Assembly: GCF_003391055.1 (NCBI RefSeq)
Contig: NZ_QUAJ01000024.1
Span: 1-48,229, forward strand
Reading direction: 5' to 3'
DNA from: Psychrilyobacter piezotolerans
GTDB lineage: Bacteria > Fusobacteriota > Fusobacteriia > Fusobacteriales > Fusobacteriaceae
DNA length: 48,229 bases
The notes under the pieces were generated by a model. It ran no database searches and was not told the DNA's origin. It saw only the letters and a list, made by a program, of their open reading frames with translations. This document shows positions 32,355 through 46,430 of the stretch, piece by piece (positions within the stretch are counted from its first letter, which is position 1; each line of letters opens with the position of its first letter). A program made the translations under genes and the position numbers.

Positions 32355-32366
32355 TTGTACTCCTTT

Positions 32367-32386
32367 ATGTCTACACTCAATAATAA
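32367..32386 (+). repeat. Iteron-like repeat 1
   Basis: ATGTCTACACTCAATAATAA. Leftmost copy of the family, just upstream of ispE. Confidence 0.75.
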
Positions 32387-33606: not shown

Positions 33607-33641
33607 CTCTTTCCTCCATGGGTGAAAAATATATATACAAT

Positions 33642-33661
33642 ATGTATATACTCAATAATAA
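33642..33661 (+). repeat. Iteron-like repeat 2
   Basis: ATGTATATACTCAATAATAA, in the gap upstream of mazG. Shares the AAGTAT tail with the copy at 38253. Confidence 0.75.
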
Positions 33662-37611: not shown

Positions 37612-37631
37612 TTATTTTTGTTAGTATACAT
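37612..37631 (-). repeat. Iteron-like repeat 3 (minus orientation)
   Basis: ATGTATACTAACAAAAATAA on the minus strand, directly abutting the mfd ribosome site; bound protein here would block mfd translation or transcription. Confidence 0.7.
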
Positions 37632-37682
37632 TTTAACATCATCTTTCTCAACGGTCTGCTCTATAGTATATATTTTTTTATC

Positions 37683-37759
37683 TCTATTCATCTATTCATC
37701 TATTCATCTATTCATCTATTCATCTATTCATCTATTCATCTATTCATCTATTCATCTAT
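37683..37759. repeat. Tandem octamer array, nine copies of TCTATTCA
   Basis: Nine perfect head-to-tail copies plus a partial tenth. On the minus strand each unit carries ATG-AAT-AGA-TGA, a three-codon ORF whose stop overlaps the next ATG. The last ATG (37691) is in frame with mfd. Lies at the edge of the iteron region. Confidence 0.97.
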
Positions 37760-37854
37760 AAAGATTCTATCATAGTCTTAAATGAAAAACATAATAAACT
37801 TTTTTTGAATTTAATTGTAAGTTTAAAAAAATATAATCTACCATTATATCATTT

Positions 37855-37874
37855 ATGTCTACAATCAATAATAA
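37855..37874 (+). repeat. Iteron-like repeat 4
   Basis: ATGTCTACAATCAATAATAA in AT-rich non-coding DNA between mfd and rep. The 37760-38252 stretch holds no gene I can support. Confidence 0.8.
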
Positions 37875-37907
37875 TAAAAATTAAAATAAAAAGAAAAAAA
37901 TTAACCT

Positions 37908-37927
37908 TTATTTTTGTTTATGTACAT
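37908..37927 (-). repeat. Iteron-like repeat 5 (minus orientation)
   Basis: ATGTACATAAACAAAAATAA on the minus strand. Belongs to the CAAAAATAA sub-type. Confidence 0.75.
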
Positions 37928-37955
37928 ATTCAACCTTTATATTTCTAAATTCGTT

Positions 37956-37975
37956 ATGTACACACACAATAATAA
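37956..37975 (+). repeat. Iteron-like repeat 6
   Basis: ATGTACACACACAATAATAA, identical to the copy at 40504. Confidence 0.85.
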
Positions 37976-38143
37976 ACAAAATATCTAGATATTACTTTCA
38001 TTTTTTATAGCTGTTAAAAATAGTTAGTTGTTGATGTTTCGCGCTTACTAAGCCCATAATAATATTAAGATCTAATTTTTATTTTCTTTAAAATTCTATT
38101 TAAAATAAAGTATTTTGATAATTTTAAAGAAAAATTTATAGCT

Positions 38144-38168
38144 GTTTGCCCGCCGGAGGCGGGCAAAC
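38144..38168. other. GC-rich perfect hairpin in the origin-like region
   Basis: GTTTGCCCGCC pairs fully with GGCGGGCAAAC (11 bp, 3-nt loop) in otherwise very AT-rich DNA. There is no U run on either strand, so it is a poor terminator candidate. It may be a structural element of the origin. Confidence 0.6.
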
Positions 38169-38173
38169 TCTAC

Positions 38174-38209
38174 GGTTTTTAATGCGTATACCATCACAAA
38201 ATTTCAGTT
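38174..38209 (+). repeat. 36-bp repeat, copy A
   Basis: Starts GGTTTTTAATGCGTATACC; matches 46365-46400 at about 31 of 36 positions. Both copies lie a short way upstream of an iteron-like 20-mer. Confidence 0.7.
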
Positions 38210-38252
38210 AGCTGGTAATTTTAAAATATTAGCCTTAAAAGAATATCTGTAT

Positions 38253-38272
38253 ATGTATACACTCAATAATAA
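38253..38272 (+). repeat. Iteron-like repeat 7
   Basis: ATGTATACACTCAATAATAA followed by AGTAT, immediately beyond the rep terminator. Confidence 0.8.
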
Positions 38273-38285
38273 AGTATGGATGAAT

Positions 38286-38311
38286 AAAAAAGATCACCGA
38301 AGTGATCTTTT
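38286..38311 (-). terminator. Terminator of rep
   Basis: AAAAGATCAC-TTCG-GTGATCTTTT on the minus strand: a stem closed by a UUCG tetraloop, then U-rich sequence, 12 nt past the stop codon. Confidence 0.9.
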
Positions 38312-38322
38312 AGTTTAGCTTC

Positions 38323-40194
38323 TTATTTTCCGTCTTTTAAGGCTATTCCTATATATTTTTTTAATGTTATAAAGTATACTCTTTTAGATACCTTTCTTAA
38401 ATTATATAGAAATTCTTTTGGTATATCTTCATATTGTGAACATAATTCCAGCGCTTTTTCCTCTATTATTAACTTTTCAAACTCATCTAACCCATGATAA
38501 TCCTGCATAATATCATTTTTAGGCAGATCTTCGATAACATCTTTTATACTTGTTATTTCTGGATTCTTCAAGTGTTTTCTTGCTTTCTTTAACTGCTTTT
38601 TACTCTTTAAAGGTTTTTCTCTAGTTACCTGGTTAAACAAGGTTAGATTGTTTTTATTGGATTTTCTAGCATTTCTATCCATCTTTCTTAAATTTCGGAG
38701 TATCCCGTTTATATATTGAACTAAGGTCGATTTTATTTCCGAGTTAAGACGTTTATATAAAAGGTTTAATATATCAATCGCTACCTCTTCTCCATCTTCC
38801 CTTATTATCTTTTTAAATTTATTATCCACTCTTTTATTCCAAGCTCTCGAAACAAATATATTTCTTTTACACTTAATTATCCTGCTTTGGAGTTCCTCCG
38901 AAAAGTCTTTTAACCTTTCTTTTACATCTTCAGATAAGTTAATTTCGTTAGTTTTATTTTTATCTGCCTTTCCAGTAACTATCTCAGCATCCATTATCTC
39001 ATTATCATCTCTTATTTCTATCTCTTTTATCTTGTCCTTTATTATTTCTTTGGTAATAAATGACTTTTCTTTCTTAGCTTTCTTAGCTGCATTTACTGCG
39101 TCCCATTTCCCTTTGTATTCCACTTGTTTCTCTTGTCCATTTAAATAACTGGATATATGACAAGTTCCATCTTTATCCTGGTTAAATCTATAGTTTATAT
39201 AATAACTATCCTCTTCGGCAATAAATTCCGAGTTAAAATAATCCATATATCCCAATTCTTCTAAGAGTGAAAAAGCTTTCTCAATTCTTTTCAATACCTG
39301 CTTTACCCTGCTTAATACATAGATCCTTTTCTCACCAGTTTTATTAACTCTTTCTGTTTCCTGTTCCATTTTTAATGGAATTATAGCTGCTAAAGTCCTG
39401 ATATTTATAGAATCCTCCTGCTTGGAATACCTAATTTTACTTATATACTTATAGATCCTTGCAGCAATGGGGTCTTTTTCCATTATTTCTATAAGGGCTT
39501 TAGAATTATATTTTATATATCTTTTATCTTTAATTTTATTTCTGATGTTTTTATTCAAAGTTACTTTATAATATACCTTTGTTCCCACTTTAAGTTTTTG
39601 ATAGGTAAGCAGTTTAAATTCCTCATCTTCAAATTGATAATTTCCTAACTTACTATGGTTAGATACTTCAAACTGATATTCAGTACTCTTCAAATTTTTA
39701 AGTGCCTGTGCTACCTTGGTATAATAATTTCTATTCATCTTATTTCCTAAAAAATTAACTATAAAGTCTGAAATTTCAAATTTTATATACTCATCTGTAT
39801 CATTGGTCTCCTTTTTTAACTCATAGAGAGATATAAGATATGTATAAATTTTTTCTTCAAAAATAGATGGTTGGTATATTTTATCCTCTGAATTTTTTGC
39901 AACTAATGTACAAAACATAGTCACTCCCAAATCTTCAAAAGAATATTTAAAATTTATTTTTTTATTTTGTTTTTGAGGAGTAAAAAAAGGAAAAACTATC
40001 ATTTCTATTGGTATATTTATGATATTTTCTTTTAAATCTAGAAAATTTCCAGTTTCTTTGATCACAACTTCTCTAACTTCTATTTCAGGAAGTTGGCTCA
40101 TTTTTATATCAACTTTAGTCAAGTCAGTTAATAATGATCCAGTTTTATTTAAATTAAATTCATCTATTAAACCCATATTTACTTCCTTTGACAT
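38323..40194 (-). CDS. Plasmid-type replication initiator (RepA/RPA-like) at the dnaA position
   Basis: 623 aa from the ATG at 40194, which follows GGAGGAG (frame open to 40221). Residues about 60-190 match the pattern of plasmid initiator protein A: IVFPFFTPQKQNKK, a YQPSIFEEKIYTYLIS segment, then NYYTKVAQALKNLKSTEY, a winged-helix arrangement. A second wing-like region follows (DPIAARIYKYISKIRY...VLKRIEKAFSLLEELGYMDYF, about 245-325). The C-terminal half is long, basic and helical. There is no Walker A or other DnaA motif. It sits beside rpmH, where dnaA usually lies, and is surrounded by iteron-like repeats, so it probably starts replication here. Best-fit family by eye only. Confidence 0.8.
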   Translation of the reverse strand: MSKEVNMGLIDEFNLNKTGSLLTDLTKVDIKMSQLPEIEVREVVIKETGNFLDLKENIINIPIEMIVFPFFTPQKQNKKINFKYSFEDLGVTMFCTLVAKNSEDKIYQPSIFEEKIYTYLISLYELKKETNDTDEYIKFEISDFIVNFLGNKMNRNYYTKVAQALKNLKSTEYQFEVSNHSKLGNYQFEDEEFKLLTYQKLKVGTKVYYKVTLNKNIRNKIKDKRYIKYNSKALIEIMEKDPIAARIYKYISKIRYSKQEDSINIRTLAAIIPLKMEQETERVNKTGEKRIYVLSRVKQVLKRIEKAFSLLEELGYMDYFNSEFIAEEDSYYINYRFNQDKDGTCHISSYLNGQEKQVEYKGKWDAVNAAKKAKKEKSFITKEIIKDKIKEIEIRDDNEIMDAEIVTGKADKNKTNEINLSEDVKERLKDFSEELQSRIIKCKRNIFVSRAWNKRVDNKFKKIIREDGEEVAIDILNLLYKRLNSEIKSTLVQYINGILRNLRKMDRNARKSNKNNLTLFNQVTREKPLKSKKQLKKARKHLKNPEITSIKDVIEDLPKNDIMQDYHGLDEFEKLIIEEKALELCSQYEDIPKEFLYNLRKVSKRVYFITLKKYIGIALKDGK

Positions 40195-40213
40195 AACTCC
40201 TCCATTAATTTTT

Positions 40214-40233
40214 TTGTCCATTCACAATAATAA
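40214..40233 (+). repeat. Iteron-like repeat 8 (diverged), at the rep leader
   Basis: TTGTCCATTCACAATAATAA: the right half is perfect, the left half diverged. Lies between the rep promoter and its ribosome site. Confidence 0.55.
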
Positions 40234-40247
40234 TCCTAGTGTCATAC

Positions 40248-40276
40248 ATAGTATCATCAAAACTAAATAAATTCAA
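40248..40276 (-). promoter_or_regulatory. Promoter of rep
   Basis: TTGAAT, 17-nt spacer ending TGA, TACTAT on the minus strand. Iteron-like copies lie directly upstream (40280-40299) and downstream (40214-40233). Confidence 0.7.
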
Positions 40277-40279
40277 ACT

Positions 40280-40299
40280 TTATTTTTGAAGGTGTACAT
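40280..40299 (-). repeat. Iteron-like repeat 9 (minus orientation), abutting rep -35
   Basis: ATGTACACCTTCAAAAATAA on the minus strand, 3 nt upstream of the rep -35 box. Confidence 0.75.
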
Positions 40300-40410
40300 A
40301 TCATTTGTTGTATTTAATAAGCATTTCACCCATCTTAACTGTTTCTTTTTCAACTAAATAACAATCATAAATAATAACTTTTCAACACTTTAATAAAATA
40401 ATAATAAATT

Positions 40411-40430
40411 ATGTATACTAACATTAATAA
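40411..40430 (+). repeat. Iteron-like repeat 10
   Basis: ATGTATACTAACATTAATAA, in the 40300-40873 non-coding interval, which otherwise holds only AT-rich sequence and the next three copies. Confidence 0.75.
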
Positions 40431-40503
40431 TTTAGAATCATCAATTTCCCTTAATAATATTAGGATTATAAAAATTAACCATTGAAAAACCTGGTTTTTA
40501 ACT

Positions 40504-40523
40504 ATGTACACACACAATAATAA
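40504..40523 (+). repeat. Iteron-like repeat 11
   Basis: ATGTACACACACAATAATAA. Copies 11-13 are spaced 104-105 nt apart, about ten helical turns, and share one orientation. Confidence 0.88.
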
Positions 40524-40608
40524 TTATATTATACTGAATTTATTGAATTTATTGAGCTTTAAACTACCTCTGTACACCTAATCCCTTTAAAAGTAATGAA
40601 TTTTGATT

Positions 40609-40628
40609 ATGTACACATACAATAATAA
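40609..40628 (+). repeat. Iteron-like repeat 12
   Basis: ATGTACACATACAATAATAA, 105 nt after copy 11. Confidence 0.88.
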
Positions 40629-40712
40629 CATTCACCTTTAACAAACCTTGTATTTATTGGGGTTAATTTATCACTAAAGATAAAAAGCCTTGTATTTAAA
40701 GGTTTTCAGCAT

Positions 40713-40732
40713 ATGTACACCCACAATAATAA
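40713..40732 (+). repeat. Iteron-like repeat 13
   Basis: ATGTACACCCACAATAATAA, 104 nt after copy 12. The AT-rich stretch between it and the rpmH promoter could be the unwinding region. Confidence 0.88.
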
Positions 40733-40873
40733 TAATTAAATGCTTATTTCTTTTCTAGCCCTTATAAAATATAGAATTTCCTTATAACAAATATTGACTT
40801 TACTTTTACTACATCTTACAAAAAACAAATACTCTTTTTGGTTACTTTTATAAAAAACTTATTTAAAATTATC

Positions 40874-40902
40874 TTGACAAAATATAACTTATATATTAGA
40901 AT
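40874..40902 (+). promoter_or_regulatory. Promoter of rpmH operon
   Basis: TTGACA, 17-nt spacer, TAGAAT, 55 nt before rpmH. Confidence 0.85.
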
Positions 40903-40957
40903 TATAAACTGAAATGACAATATTTTTTTTAAACGTAACAGGAGGTGTAAATCAAAG

Positions 40958-41095
40958 ATGAGTAAAAGAACTTTTCAACCAAATAAAAGAAAAAGAAAAA
41001 AGGAACACGGGTTCAGAAAAAGAATGAAAACTAAAGCAGGAAGATCTGTTTTAAAGAGAAGAAGAGCTAAAGGTAGAACGAAATTGTCAGCATAA
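40958..41095 (+). CDS. rpmH: 50S ribosomal protein L34
   Basis: 45-aa, extremely basic L34 protein: [20 protein letters not shown], then [20 protein letters not shown]. The start is unmistakable and follows AGGAGGTG. It heads the conserved rpmH-rnpA-yidD-yidC-jag-mnmE block; in most bacteria the gene upstream of it is dnaA. Confidence 0.97.
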
Positions 41096-41123
41096 AACCC
41101 GGTGTTCATATCACCGGGTTTTT
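41095..41123 (+). terminator. Attenuating terminator after rpmH
   Basis: AAACCCGGTG pairs with CACCGGGTTT and is followed by T. It lies between rpmH and rnpA and probably lowers rnpA expression relative to the ribosomal protein. Confidence 0.82.
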
Positions 41124-41145
41124 AAAAATATTTTAAGGAGATTTT

Positions 41146-41484
41146 ATGTTGAAGTTAAAAACAAAATCTGAATTCTTAAAAGTATATAACCAAGGAGAAA
41201 AACACTTTGGTTATTTTCAGTTAATCTATTTTAAAAAAAATAACTTAAATGAAAATAGATTAGGAGTAGTAGCTAGTAAAAAAACTGGCAATGCTGTTTG
41301 TCGGAATAAATTAAAAAGACTTTTTAGAGAAAATTTTAGGAAACAAGATGAAAATTTAAAACAAGGATACGACATAGTATTTATCGCTAAAAAAAATGCA
41401 GGAGAACAATTTAAGACTCTAAGTTTATCTATGATTGAAAAAGACAGTGTAAAAATATTTAAAAGAGCTAAAATGTTTCTATGA
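41146..41484 (+). CDS. rnpA: Ribonuclease P protein component
   Basis: 112-aa basic protein subunit of RNase P, which trims tRNA 5' ends together with its RNA. N-terminal [19 protein letters not shown] and the RNR motif [29 protein letters not shown] are clear. AAGGAG precedes the start. Its last 4 nt (ATGA) overlap yidD. Confidence 0.95.
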
Positions 41485-41690
41485 AATATATTTTAATATT
41501 TTTTGTGAAATTATATCAATGGTTTATATCACCAGTCTTAAAAAAAAATTGTAGGTTCCAACCTACCTGTTCTAGTTATATGATTTTAGCAATAAAAAAA
41601 CATGGAAGTATCAAAGGTGTATATCTAGGTCTAAAAAGATTATCAAAATGTCATCCTTTTTCTAAGGGTGGTTACGACCCAGTACCTTAA
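41481..41690 (+). CDS. yidD: Membrane protein insertion efficiency factor
   Basis: 69-aa YidD protein, which supports YidC-dependent insertion. One hydrophobic/amphipathic N-terminal segment ([17 protein letters not shown]), then the signature [19 protein letters not shown] and GGYDPVP with two Cys. Coupled to rnpA by ATGA and 19 nt ahead of yidC. Confidence 0.94.
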
Positions 41691-41709
41691 ATTATGAGGA
41701 GGAACAAAG

Positions 41710-42360
41710 TTGATCGGAGCTGCATATGGAGCACTTCAAGGGGTTTTAGAAAGTGCCATAGGAATGATGTATAATATTTTTGGAAATTATGGATTAGCTA
41801 TAATTGGTATAACAATTTTAATTAAATTAGTATTGTTACCACTTACGTTAAAACAGGACAAATCAATGGGTGCGATGAAAAAACTACAACCGGAGTTAGA
41901 AGCACTTAAAGAAAAATATAAAAACGATCCACAAACATTAAATCAGAAAACAATTGAACTATATAAAATACATAAAGTAAACCCAGCAAGTGGTTGTTTA
42001 CCTATATTGTTACAAATGCCAATATTATTTGCACTTTTCGGAGTTTTAAGAAAAACAGGAGCAGATGGAGGAGTTATAGCAGACGGATCTAAATTTCTTT
42101 GGTTAACTTTATCTCAACCAGATCCATTTTACTTATTACCATTATTAAATGGTGCTGTATCTTATTTCCAGCAAAAATTAATGAGTGCAAGTCAAGGATC
42201 TTCCAATCCGCAAATGAAAATGATGACTTATATGTTTCCAGTAATGATGATATTTATCTCATACAAGATGCCAGCAGGATTGCAATTGTATTGGTTCGTA
42301 TCAAGTTTGGCTGCAGTGGCACAACAATATTTTATTATGAGTAGAAGGGATGAGGCGTAA
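41710..42360 (+). CDS. yidC: YidC/Oxa1-family membrane insertase, short form
   Basis: 216-aa insertase core. Five helices are visible, starting NYGLAIIGITILIKLVLLPLTLKQDKSM, with the cytoplasmic hairpin (QPELEALKEKYKNDPQTLNQ) and PILLQMPILFALFGVLR. There is no large periplasmic domain, as in Firmicutes, and no lipobox or signal peptide at the start. The start codon is TTG at 41710, supported by GAGGAGG 7 nt upstream. It co-inserts membrane proteins with SecYEG. Confidence 0.92.
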   Translation: MIGAAYGALQGVLESAIGMMYNIFGNYGLAIIGITILIKLVLLPLTLKQDKSMGAMKKLQPELEALKEKYKNDPQTLNQKTIELYKIHKVNPASGCLPILLQMPILFALFGVLRKTGADGGVIADGSKFLWLTLSQPDPFYLLPLLNGAVSYFQQKLMSASQGSSNPQMKMMTYMFPVMMIFISYKMPAGLQLYWFVSSLAAVAQQYFIMSRRDEA

Positions 42361-42361
42361 A

Positions 42362-42997
42362 ATGAACTTAACTTATCAAATCAAAGCTAAATCAAAAGAT
42401 GAAGCTATAATTAAAGCTGTAAAAGACCATAATATTGATAAGAGCAAAATCGTAGAAATCATTGAGATCTCAAAAGCAACTTCATTTTTTGGTTTTTTTA
42501 AAAAAGATGGGGAATATCAGATTCAAATGGAAAAAACAGTCGATATAATAGAGACAAAAATAGAAGATATGGTAGTAGAAAGAGCCAATGAATTATTAGA
42601 TAATATGGGATTAGTTCTGAATGTAGAAGTTTTAGAAGCAAGAGATCACTATGTTTTAATTAATCTATCTGGTGAAGACAATGGAATAATTATAGGAAAA
42701 AAAGGTAAAACTTTAAATAGTTTCGAATACCTTTTGAATTCTCTATGCAAAAGTGTAAAAGTAGAAGTGGATGTAGAGGGATTTAAGGCTAAAAGAGCAG
42801 AAACTCTTAGAGATTTAGCTAGAAAAATGGCTGAAAAAGCGTTAAATACCGATAAAATCGTAAAATTAAATCCAATGCCGCCAAGGGAAAGAAAAATTAT
42901 TCACGAGATAGTGAATAAATACAAAGAACTTGATACTTTTAGTGAAGGTAGAGATCCTAAGAGATATATTGTAATTAAAAGAAAAAGAATGGGGTAA
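42362..42997 (+). CDS. jag: Jag/KhpB RNA-binding protein
   Basis: 211-aa three-part protein: N-terminal Jag domain ([34 protein letters not shown]), KH domain ([22 protein letters not shown], about 100-140) and C-terminal R3H domain ([13 protein letters not shown]...[16 protein letters not shown]). Jag/KhpB partners KhpA in RNA binding tied to cell elongation. The ATG at 42362 with GATGAGG ahead is preferred to the one at 42350. The start lies 2 nt after yidC. Confidence 0.92.
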
Positions 42998-43001
42998 AAC
43001 T

Positions 43002-44369
43002 ATGTTTGATACAATAGCAGCAATCTCTACTCCTAGAGGAGAAGGTGGAATAGGAATTGTTAGAATGTCCGGAGAAGACTCCATAAACATTCTTTCAAAA
43101 ATATTCAGACCAATATCTAAAAAAAAAGTAGAAGAATTAAAGAATTTTACTATTAATTATGGACATCTATATTCAGGTGTTAATTTAGTGGATGAAGTAA
43201 TGGTCAGCATAATGAAGGGTCCTAAAACTTATACTAAGGAAGATATAGTCGAGATAAACTGCCATGGTGGTTATCTTATGACTGAGAAAGTGTTGGAGTT
43301 AGTTTTATCTAATGGAGCCAGAATTGCTGAACAAGGTGAATTTACAAGAAGAGCTTTCATGAATGGAAGATTGGATCTTACCCAGGCAGAAGCTGTAATT
43401 GATTTGATCCATGGTAAGACAGAGAGAAGTTTATCTCTTTCGTTAGACCAATTAAGGGGAGACTTAAAAGATCAGATACTGCATTTAAAAAAATTACTTC
43501 TAGATGTAGTTGCTCATATAAATGTAGTTTTAGACTATCCTGAAGAGGGGATCGATGATCCATTACCTGAGGGGTTAGTAGGTAACTTGAAGGAAGTTTT
43601 GGAAACTTCAGATAGATTATCAGCTTCTTATAATCAGGGAAAGATGATTAAAGAGGGAGTTAAAACTGCAATAGTTGGAAAACCTAATGTAGGAAAATCT
43701 AGTTTATTGAACTCTTTGTTGAAAGAAGAAAGAGCCATAGTAACTCATATTCCAGGAACAACAAGGGATGTAATAGAAGAGATTATTAATATAAAAGGAA
43801 TACCACTTATCTTAGCTGATACAGCAGGAATAAGAAATACAGATGATTTTATTGAGAATATCGGAGTGGAAAAATCTGAGAAGTTATTAAATGACGCAGA
43901 TTTAATCTTATTCGTTGTAGATGGTTCTAGAGAACTCAGTGAAGAGGATCTTAGAGTACATAATAGTATTCATAGTGAAAAAGTTGTTGGAATATTAAAT
44001 AAGATAGATATAGAGCAGAAAATAGACCTGTCTAAATTAGATAAAGTCGGTAGATGGATCGAAATTTCAGCTAAAGAAAATATTGGTATAGCTAAAATGG
44101 AAGAAGAAATATATTCTTATATTGTATCAGGTAAAGTTGAAGATTCTTCTCAGACTTTAGTGATAACTAATATTAGACATAGATCTGCCTTGGTTAAAAC
44201 TAAGGAAGCTATAGAAAATATATTTGAAACAATAAATATGGGACTGCCGATGGATTTAATAGCTGTAGATCTAAAGGAAGCTTTGGATGCTCTATCGGAA
44301 GTAACTGGAGAGATCTCATCGGAAGATGTTTTAGATCATATATTTAGTAATTTCTGTGTAGGAAAATAA
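43002..44369 (+). CDS. mnmE: tRNA modification GTPase MnmE
   Basis: With MnmG it forms cmnm5U34 in tRNA wobble positions. N-terminal folate-binding domain ([23 protein letters not shown]), helical domain, inserted G domain with [27 protein letters not shown] and NKID, and the C-terminal catalytic FCVGK. The 455-aa size is normal. Start is 4 nt after jag. Its partner mnmG follows after a terminator. Confidence 0.97.
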
Positions 44370-44386
44370 GTTATAAAAAAAATATG

Positions 44387-44418
44387 AAATACTGCAGATA
44401 TTTCTGCAGTATTTTTTT
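44387..44418 (+). terminator. Terminator after mnmE
   Basis: AAATACTGCAG pairs with CTGCAGTATTT, followed by a T run. It separates mnmE from mnmG, which usually share one transcript in other bacteria. Confidence 0.88.
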
Positions 44419-44466
44419 CTTTTAATATTAATATCTGGCGTCTCGTGTGTAAAGATAAGAAAAAAT

Positions 44467-44486
44467 ATGTATATGAACAAAAATAA
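44467..44486 (+). repeat. Iteron-like repeat 14
   Basis: ATGTATATGAACAAAAATAA, 20 nt before the mnmG start. Confidence 0.7.
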
Positions 44487-44506
44487 ACTTAAAAAAAGGA
44501 GTACTT

Positions 44507-46357
44507 ATGAATTATGATGTAATCGTTGTAGGAGGAGGGCATGCTGGATGTGAAGCAGCACTAGCCTCAGCAAGATCAGGATTAAAAACAGCTCTGTTTA
44601 CAATATATTTAGATACTATAGCTATGATGTCGTGCAATCCTTCCATAGGTGGACCAGGAAAGAGTCATATAGTTGCAGAAATAGATATGTTGGGAGGAGA
44701 GATTGGAAAACATACCGATAAATATAACCTGCAATTAAAACACTTGAATACCAGTAAGGGACCTGCAGCCAGGATAACTCGTGGACAGGCTGATAAATAC
44801 TGGTATAGGGTAAAAATGAAAGAGATAATAGAAAATACTCCTAATTTAGATAGTATCCAAGGAACAATTGAGGACATTATTATTGAAGATGGACAAATAA
44901 AAGGAGTTATCTCCGGCCTGGGAATAGAATATAAAGCAACTTCTGTAATATTAGCTACTGGAACTTTCTTAAAAGGACGAATAGTTATTGGAGATGTAAA
45001 GTATCCAGCAGGGAGAATAGGTGAGATGTCTGCTGAAAAACTATCAGATGCACTGACTAAAAATGGAATAGTACTGGATAGGTATCAAACTGCTACTCCG
45101 CCAAGGGTGGATATGAGAACTGTAGATTTCAGTAAGATGAAGGAATTACACGGAGAAGATCATCCAAAATATTTTTCATTATTTACGAAAAAGGAAAAAA
45201 ATAATAATGCACCTACATGGCTGACATACACAACTCCTGAAACTGTAAAAGTAGCCCAGGATCTGCTGCAGTATTCACCAATAGTAAGTGGGATAATAGA
45301 AACTCACGGGCCGAGACACTGCCCGTCACTTGATAGAAAAGTATTGAACTTCCCTGAAAAAACAAATCATCAAATTTTCTTGGAATTAGAATCCAAAGAA
45401 ACTAATGAACTTTACGTAAACGGCCTGACAACAGCTATGCCTCCCTTTGCTCAAGAAAAGATGATGAGAACCATAGCAGGATTGGAAGATGCTAAAATAA
45501 TGAGGTATGGTTATGCTGTGGAATATGACTATGCACCTTCTTACCAGTTATACCCTAGTTTAGAGAGTAAAAAAATAAAAAATCTTTATTTTGCAGGACA
45601 GATAAATGGAACTTCTGGGTATGAAGAAGCAGCAGCTCAAGGATTTTTAGCAGGGGTAAATGCCAGTAGAAAAGTATTGGGGAAAGATCCTGTTGTAGTA
45701 GATCGAACCGAAGGTTACCTAGGGGTATTGGTCGATGATATAATCCATAAAAAAACTCCAGAACCATATAGAGTGTTGCCATCAAGAGCAGAGTACAGAC
45801 TGACTCTGAGGTTTGACAATGCATTTATGAGGCTCCTTGATAAAGCTAAAGAGATTGGTATTGTTTCTGAGGATAAAATTAAATTTTTAGAGGAAGCGAA
45901 AGAGATTGTAGAATACGAAGTTGAAAGGATAAACCAGATAAGTATATCTATGAAACAGGCAAATGAAGTTTTAGCAAGTGTAGATGCTAAGGATAGATTT
46001 GGTAAAGGGGTAAAATTATCTGAATTATTAAAACAAAAAGAAGTTACCTATGATTCTTTGGGGTTAATTATAGATATTAAGGAGCTGCCGACATTCGTTA
46101 AAAATCAAATTGAAACTATAATCAAATATAATGTATTTATCGAGAGAGAAAAAACACAAATAGAAAAATTTAGAAGACTAGAAAGTATGAAAATACCAGA
46201 AGGATTTAAATTTGAAACTATACCAGGATTATCTAATATAGCCAGAGATGGGTTAGAACAGATAAAGCCGCTGTCTATCGGAGAAGCTACAAGGATAAGC
46301 GGGGTAACAGGAAATGATATAGCAGTACTTATTACAAATTTGGAGAATATGAAATAA
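44507..46357 (+). CDS. mnmG: tRNA uridine modification enzyme MnmG (GidA)
   Basis: FAD-dependent partner of MnmE. 616 aa with the FAD motif VIVVGGGHAGCEAALASARSG (4-24), PSIGGPGKSHIVAEIDMLGG, YPAGRIGEMSAE, ETHGPRHCPSLDRKV, GLTTAMPPFAQEKMMR and INGTSGYEEAAAQG, then the C-terminal helical domain that binds MnmE and tRNA. AAAGGAG precedes the start. An iteron-like copy lies between this ribosome site and the mnmE terminator. Confidence 0.97.
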   Translation: MNYDVIVVGGGHAGCEAALASARSGLKTALFTIYLDTIAMMSCNPSIGGPGKSHIVAEIDMLGGEIGKHTDKYNLQLKHLNTSKGPAARITRGQADKYWYRVKMKEIIENTPNLDSIQGTIEDIIIEDGQIKGVISGLGIEYKATSVILATGTFLKGRIVIGDVKYPAGRIGEMSAEKLSDALTKNGIVLDRYQTATPPRVDMRTVDFSKMKELHGEDHPKYFSLFTKKEKNNNAPTWLTYTTPETVKVAQDLLQYSPIVSGIIETHGPRHCPSLDRKVLNFPEKTNHQIFLELESKETNELYVNGLTTAMPPFAQEKMMRTIAGLEDAKIMRYGYAVEYDYAPSYQLYPSLESKKIKNLYFAGQINGTSGYEEAAAQGFLAGVNASRKVLGKDPVVVDRTEGYLGVLVDDIIHKKTPEPYRVLPSRAEYRLTLRFDNAFMRLLDKAKEIGIVSEDKIKFLEEAKEIVEYEVERINQISISMKQANEVLASVDAKDRFGKGVKLSELLKQKEVTYDSLGLIIDIKELPTFVKNQIETIIKYNVFIEREKTQIEKFRRLESMKIPEGFKFETIPGLSNIARDGLEQIKPLSIGEATRISGVTGNDIAVLITNLENMK

Positions 46358-46400: not shown

Positions 46401-46410
46401 GTTAACAAAT

Positions 46411-46430
46411 ATGTATACAGACAAAAATAA
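46411..46430 (+). repeat. Iteron-like repeat 15
   Basis: ATGTATACAGACAAAAATAA. Rightmost copy found; lies between mnmG and the fluoride riboswitch. Confidence 0.72.

Follow-up and report, generated by a model that had tools for sequence, protein, structure and literature searches.

A plasmid-type initiator gene in the position of dnaA suggests DnaA-independent chromosome replication in the Fusobacteriaceae

DnaA counts as the universal initiator of bacteria and is considered a drug target; textbooks as well as genome tools rely on it to define oriC. Here, we describe a stretch of 48,229 nucleotides from Psychrilyobacter piezotolerans (contig NZ_QUAJ01000024.1, in the following called the window), in which the gene at the customary position of dnaA codes for a plasmid-type replication initiator, Rep. 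In an ancestor of the Fusobacteriaceae, a plasmid-type replicon consisting of rep and its iterons most probably replaced dnaA in situ, dnaA was lost, and Rep now initiates replication of the main chromosome. It is very likely that the whole family, whose members are free-living or host-associated, replicates its main chromosome without DnaA, the captured Rep acting as sole initiator at the old oriC position with a new layout of 21-bp boxes about 105 bp, i.e. about ten helical turns, apart. An initial annotation of the window had proposed that a captured plasmid replicon replaced or supplements DnaA. Our comparisons support this proposal, favour 'replaced' as the better word and extend it to all Fusobacteriaceae, a larger scope than originally envisaged.

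A plasmid-type initiator gene in the dnaA slot

Our survey covered 98 Fusobacteriota genomes, 61 from 14 genera of the Fusobacteriaceae and 37 from other groups. The P. piezotolerans genome is a 3.36-Mb draft of 86 contigs (99.8% complete), one of which is the window; complete Fusobacteriaceae genomes were the single-contig genomes G016, G026-G028, G038 and G039 and the three-replicon genome G042. Profile searches with PF00308 (the DnaA AAA+ domain) and PF08299 (the DnaA-specific domain IV) revealed a real DnaA in none of the 61 Fusobacteriaceae. The complete genomes lack dnaA as well, as is characteristic of DnaA-independent chromosomes, and P. piezotolerans has no PF00308 match at all. The strongest PF00308 match in the family reached an E-value of 3e-12, compared with 4e-45 or better in other families. 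Such weak matches are patchy, multi-copy open reading frames (ORFs) of mostly ~150-300 amino acids (aa), as expected of IstB/DnaC. Domain IV was found in 0 of 61 Fusobacteriaceae versus 36 of the 37 other Fusobacteriota, the single genome without it (G086) being 82% complete. As the searches read through stop codons, a recent dnaA pseudogene would be visible. DnaA boxes (TTATNCACA) were absent from 37 rep-rpmH gaps (31 kb), and TTATCCACA occurs in the window at chance level. An intact dnaA with a DnaA-box oriC at a skew minimum elsewhere, the arrangement that the initial annotation had set against its own proposal, was looked for and not found.

The block rpmH-rnpA-yidD-yidC-jag-mnmE-mnmG, which normally abuts dnaA and oriC, is intact and in order on the forward strand of the window (40958..46357; rpmH at 40958-41095), as initially annotated. 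On the reverse strand, rep (38323..40194) diverges from rpmH and has mfd on its other side. DnaA-bearing outgroups show the order gyrB-dciA-recF-yaaA-dnaA-gap-rpmH-rnpA (pieces in L001, L003, L004 and L151), and Fusobacterium-type genomes, Ilyobacter and others show gyrB-dciA-recF-yaaA-rep-gap-rpmH-rnpA-yidD-yidC-jag-mnmE-mnmG (L119, L120, L125, L126, L127, L130, L052, L153 and L093/L094). The two orders are identical but for the initiator and thus point to replacement in place, not to insertion elsewhere. In Psychrilyobacter the recF-gyrB operon lies ~100 kb from the origin, as judged from the genus mate G055 against G026 and G042, and mfd adjoins rep instead. A Rep search matched 59 of the 61 Fusobacteriaceae genomes, with only a paralogue or fragment in G060 and G052, and a chromosomal orthologue was seen in 57 of the 61, though in G056 only as a contig-end fragment (96% identical). 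In three of the drafts in which it was not seen (G040, G046 and G060), the sequence breaks off precisely here, on the origin side of mnmE at distances of 2.5, 1.5 and 0.7 kb, respectively; the fourth, the draft G052, is without a clear mnmE as well. The comparison suggested by the initial annotation thus yields the rep arrangement across the Fusobacteriaceae and dnaA in 36 of 37 other Fusobacteriota.

The mechanically called ORF of rep comprises 632 aa from position 40221. Nine codons further on, an ATG at 40194 is preceded by the Shine-Dalgarno sequence GGAGGAG, and for this reason we place rep at 38323-40194, in agreement with the 623 aa originally assigned. The Pfam family RPA (PF10134, Replication initiator protein A) aligns with aa 76-277 of the 632-aa ORF (E 5e-6). 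It also matches 24 of 37 aligned Rep relatives (best E 7e-9), and relatives such as the F. vincentii orthologue (31.5 bits) lie above the curated cut-off, in accordance with the earlier remark that the protein resembles plasmid initiator protein A. Likewise, a motif scan bore out the reported lack of a P-loop in the window Rep, and the one motif match among 71 Rep homologues was spurious. Between Psychrilyobacter species, dN/dS (the ratio of nonsynonymous to synonymous substitution rates) of rep is 0.02-0.06, and the gene is therefore strongly constrained by purifying selection.

A structure model of full-length Rep was too poor for use, and meaningful matches came from a model of aa 46-357 alone, which was built from five sequences only. 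In this weak model the region folds into two winged-helix-like modules. Its best Foldseek matches in the PDB were domains 2-3 of the Vibrio chromosome 2 initiator RctB (prob 0.98) and iteron-bound R6K pi (0.91), both weak with E-values of 0.002-0.02 and template modelling (TM) scores of only ~0.3. A fold similar to RctB and pi is thus a lead and no proof. A profile search of PDB sequences with Rep returned only chance matches to ETS and cullin winged-helix proteins.

Rep boxes and the putative origin

The repeat TATGTACACNNACAATAATAA is present in four exact copies in the P. piezotolerans genome, all of them inside the window. Allowing up to three mismatches, the window contains 16 sites, against 0.04 expected, out of 25 matches in the entire genome, and the iteron-like repeats mentioned in the initial annotation are thereby substantiated. 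A box matrix seeded with the own-genome sites and refined on 31 Fusobacteriaceae rep-rpmH gaps gave the 21-bp consensus WATGTAYAYnnnCAATAATAW. It detected 194 sites in the 31 gaps, compared with 0.9 in shuffled gaps, and 185 of the 194 share one orientation. Since the same gaps served both to refine the matrix and to score it, independent controls are important. Control DNA of G055, G026 and G042 (1.04 Mb) contained only 5 sites, matrix scans found none in dnaA-type outgroup origins and none upstream of the rep on the organism's own putative chromid, and the F. vincentii gap, which had been left out of the matrix, contains five boxes. Box spacing is mostly 102-107 bp, the next classes being 92-95 and 115-117 bp. 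Multiples of 10.5 bp account for the dominant spacings (84, 94, 105, 116) but not for a 70/152-bp class, and fitting gave 12.1 as the best period; helical phasing is suggested only.

The 763-bp gap between rep and rpmH (40195..40957) is the putative replication origin. It holds both the cumulative GC-skew minimum of the window (40888) and the AT-skew minimum (40350). Following up the GC-skew analysis proposed initially, with genomes outside the window sampled in 20-48-kb stretches, we found that in four lineages, namely Psychrilyobacter, Ilyobacter, F. vincentii and another Fusobacterium-type genome, the minimum falls between rep and rpmH. On the 2.33-Mb chromosome of G055, where rep occupies 149067-150953, the skew changes from negative to positive within the gap (minimum 151625), and an opposite flip near 1.2-1.3 Mb marks the opposite pole. 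The minimum of the 40 kb around rep in G026 (3.54 Mb) lies at 1361198, ~0.85 kb upstream of rep, with a few opposite-sign segments further from the gene. Ilyobacter (G042) has its local minimum between rep and rpmH as well, 1.6 kb upstream of the former, and shows the other flip at 1.0 to 1.2 Mb out of 2.05 Mb. For F. vincentii SB055 we located the local minimum at 96072, between rpmH and rep (96671). A 2.1-Mb F. vincentii chromosome (NZ_CP084075.1; L153, L157) is filed in the plasmid collection as 'plasmid pSB055A'. In G055, Ilyobacter and F. vincentii, roughly half a chromosome separates the minimum from the opposite flip. The skew is thus two-sided with its minimum at the rep-rpmH gap and not irregular as with undefined or multiple origins. 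From this coincidence of skew, boxes and gene position we infer that replication is initiated from the gap by Rep.

Within the gap, four boxes supported by the matrix and by the genus alignment follow each other on the forward strand at 40410..40430, 40503..40523, 40608..40628 and 40712..40732. The last three match the consensus exactly, at distances of 105 and 104 bp from one to the next. Closer to rep lie an inverted box (40280..40300, reverse strand), conserved in the genus alignment, and a forward box over the rep leader (40213..40233; three mismatches to the own-genome consensus, family-matrix score 21.1), a possible autoregulatory operator. Downstream of rep, the family matrix detects forward boxes at 37854..37874, 37955..37975 (also an exact consensus match) and 38252..38272 and a reverse one at 37908..37928. 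A further reverse box near the mfd start (37612..37632) has a G055 counterpart at 148628. Boxes are densest exactly in the rep-rpmH gap, and additional ones occur within ~15 kb on either side at positions conserved between the window and G055. These outlying forward boxes include two intergenic sites (32366..32386 and 33641..33661, G055 counterparts 143387 and 144656), one in the mnmE-mnmG gap (44466..44486, counterpart 155195) and one after mnmG (46410..46430, counterpart 157124). Together with a site at 44877, the outlying boxes (G055 143387-157124) are mostly intergenic, and Ilyobacter and Fusobacterium genomes show a similar spread. They may serve titration, handcuffing, gene regulation or segregation. 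Some Rep-box-like sites are also present at 66-97 kb of the P. piezotolerans contig that carries recF-gyrB (C11), as if carried along.

Other elements noted initially fared differently. AT-rich DNA is indeed found next to the boxes: the stretch from the last iteron to rpmH (40745..40930) has an AT content of 76-88%, is strongly conserved in the genus (alignment columns ~560-720) and is a candidate unwinding element and rpmH promoter. The tandem octamer array exists, with ~10 copies of TCTATTCA at 37683-37760, but a role at the origin does not hold. As the array is absent in the sister genome G055 and extends over the 5′ end of the mfd ORF, ahead of the likely true mfd start, it is a lineage-specific microsatellite and not part of the origin; it possibly affects mfd expression. 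Similarly, the GC hairpin is present as a GC-rich palindrome (GCCCGCCGGAGGCGGGC, 38148-38164) amid AT-rich DNA between rep and mfd, but a function in initiation is unsupported, with 0 similar copies in 400 kb of G055.

Evolution of Rep, proposed mechanism and alternative explanations

Rep and MnmE trees of 28 Fusobacteriaceae members have 18 of 25 splits in common, compared with 0.2 by chance, and do not conflict in any branch with at least 95% support. Inheritance of the chromosomal rep has therefore been vertical, at least for the genera in our sample. The Rep relatives that we found were confined to Fusobacteriota and reside on Ilyobacter plasmids (961 and 124 kb), small plasmids and a 298-kb Haliovirga abyssi plasmid, H. 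abyssi being a member of a related family whose chromosome keeps dnaA beside recF. On the Ilyobacter and Haliovirga plasmids, these genes stand at the start of the record, with other repeats upstream where sequence was read. Plasmids outside the Fusobacteriota yielded no relatives, so that the donor is best guessed to have been a plasmid or chromid of Fusobacteriota. In the Rep tree, chromosomal and plasmid Reps fall on two sides of one branch with weak support (65/8). A phage origin was discarded, since neither 50,697 phage records nor viral contigs contained a match. P. piezotolerans itself encodes a second RPA-like Rep (35% identical) on another contig (C6, L133; 9839-11569, reverse strand) together with its own 20-22-bp repeats, ATAATCCTTTATTTATTATA. 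This contig also carries the only ParB match of the genome, as does the 1.15-Mb second replicon of G055. Given a second Rep with different repeats and ParB, C6 is probably a separate chromid replicon with its own initiator.

Iteron initiators bind iterons, open adjacent AT-rich DNA and recruit DnaB. In the Fusobacteriaceae, Rep would bind the 21-bp boxes via its winged-helix domains, the regularly spaced boxes would bring Reps together, and the adjoining conserved AT-rich stretch would open. DnaB could then be loaded by Rep with DciA, a likely loading helper since dciA, the ancestral helicase operator, has been retained next to recF-gyrB. The box over the rep leader might allow rep autoregulation, and the further boxes within ~15 kb might titrate or handcuff Rep and thereby limit re-initiation. 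An ATP switch of the DnaA kind would not be available to such a system.

Several points weigh against Rep as a DnaA-free chromosomal initiator. Most studied iteron replicons require host DnaA, and DnaA-free opening by Rep would therefore be unusual. At ~105 bp, the boxes are spaced quite differently from the tandem iterons of many plasmids (~22 bp), and box clusters reaching ~15 kb to each side would also suit a segregation or regulatory role. The window Rep scores 26.6 bits for PF10134, 0.4 bits below the curated cut-off of 27. Moreover, confidence in its model is low, with a predicted local distance difference test (pLDDT) score of 62 for aa 46-357 and 43 for the whole protein and a predicted TM score of 0.60 for aa 46-357.

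The alternative that survives best, although improbable, is that initiation is initiator-independent, as in some cyanobacteria, or depends on another protein, while Rep and its boxes form an origin-proximal segregation or regulation system akin to ParB/parS. The distribution of boxes within ~15 kb of the origin is parS-like, and the Fusobacteriaceae genomes listed yielded no clear chromosomal ParB, matches being mostly on chromids or weak. Free-living cyanobacteria without dnaA do exist (PMC7198777). However, Rep belongs to an initiator family, its relatives open plasmid and chromid records, the box array reaches its highest density precisely between rep and rpmH, and the GC skew is regular and two-sided, unlike that of many cyanobacteria. 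ParB was rejected as the box-binding protein, as most Fusobacteriaceae genomes examined yielded no clear chromosomal ParB. The apparent lack of this protein in most members examined, set beside its presence in Haliovirga and several Leptotrichiaceae, means that chromosome segregation may also be unusual in the family.

Still less probable is a very diverged DnaA or other AAA+ initiator, encoded elsewhere, that starts the chromosome at the rep locus with Rep as an accessory. Extreme divergence can escape profile searches, some Fusobacteriaceae do have weak PF00308 matches, and the genes flanking the origin are arranged as at a dnaA locus. On the other hand, P. piezotolerans lacks even a weak match, those elsewhere are IstB/DnaC-like and none has domain IV, DnaA boxes are missing from the 37 gaps while a different motif is conserved there, and rep occupies dnaA's own place. 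An ordinary integrated plasmid or an assembly artefact, conceivable for a single 48-kb contig of an 86-contig draft, is already refuted by an arrangement that is common to genera of the Fusobacteriaceae, complete circular chromosomes included, and vertically inherited.

Comparison with known replication systems

Replacement of DnaA by Rep would amount to 'integrative suppression', as it is known from the laboratory, in a natural, ancient and fixed form. It would mean that the DnaA-ATP switch is replaceable in nature, in a family that includes human-associated Fusobacterium. The boundary between chromosome and chromid would become less sharp, and once-per-cycle control without DnaA could be tested directly. 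We found no report of DnaA loss in Fusobacteriaceae in the open-access literature, a description in subscription journals or preprints being possible. The 2007 genome of F. nucleatum subsp. polymorphum lists a putative dnaA, described as of 'low identity to DnaA' and followed by recF and gyrB (PMC1924603). The ORF at the same place in F. vincentii is an RPA-type Rep without a DnaA domain and, judging from position, the 2007 label is probably a misnomer for rep. Thus, 'dnaA' annotations and origin predictions based on DnaA boxes in Fusobacteriaceae genomes would need correction.

The locus resembles a canonical DnaA-oriC region of the rpmH-dnaA-dnaN-recF-gyrB kind in position, in divergence from rpmH, in the GC-skew minimum and in its neighbours rpmH, rnpA, yaaA, recF, dciA and gyrB. 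It differs in that DnaA and DnaA boxes are missing, the initiator has no AAA+ domain and the boxes have another sequence. The Fusobacteriaceae share the absence of DnaA with DnaA-independent cyanobacteria, in which dnaA is absent or dispensable (PMC7198777). According to the 2020 study that described the cyanobacterial cases, free-living bacteria without dnaA had not been known before, and in plasmid-rescued laboratory ΔdnaA mutants of Synechococcus elongatus replication starts from an integrated plasmid origin (PMC7198777). In contrast, the Fusobacteriaceae case is natural, family-wide and ancient, with a single defined origin, regular skew, a dedicated Rep and conserved boxes, whereas the cyanobacterial origins are multiple or unknown.

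The closest likeness is to iteron plasmid and chromid initiators (R6K pi, F RepE and Vibrio RctB/ori2), with which the locus shares an initiator gene beside ~21-bp repeats, AT-rich DNA and the lack of a P-loop. The rep-rpmH gaps of the Fusobacteriaceae display the hallmark of the iteron type, ~20-bp sites in one orientation beside the initiator gene. Closely spaced tandem iterons, about two helical turns apart, with a nearby DnaA box, which are common though not universal in plasmids, are not found here; instead, the boxes are ~105 bp apart, with neither a DnaA box nor a host DnaA. With its 623 aa and long C-terminal extension, the window Rep also departs from iteron initiators. According to a review of secondary chromosomes, iteron origins belong to plasmids and chromids, which coexist with a main chromosome under the control of the 'universal' DnaA (PMC6090056). 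Unlike these replicons, the Rep of the Fusobacteriaceae sits in the dnaA slot, is the only detectable initiator and appears to serve the main chromosome itself.
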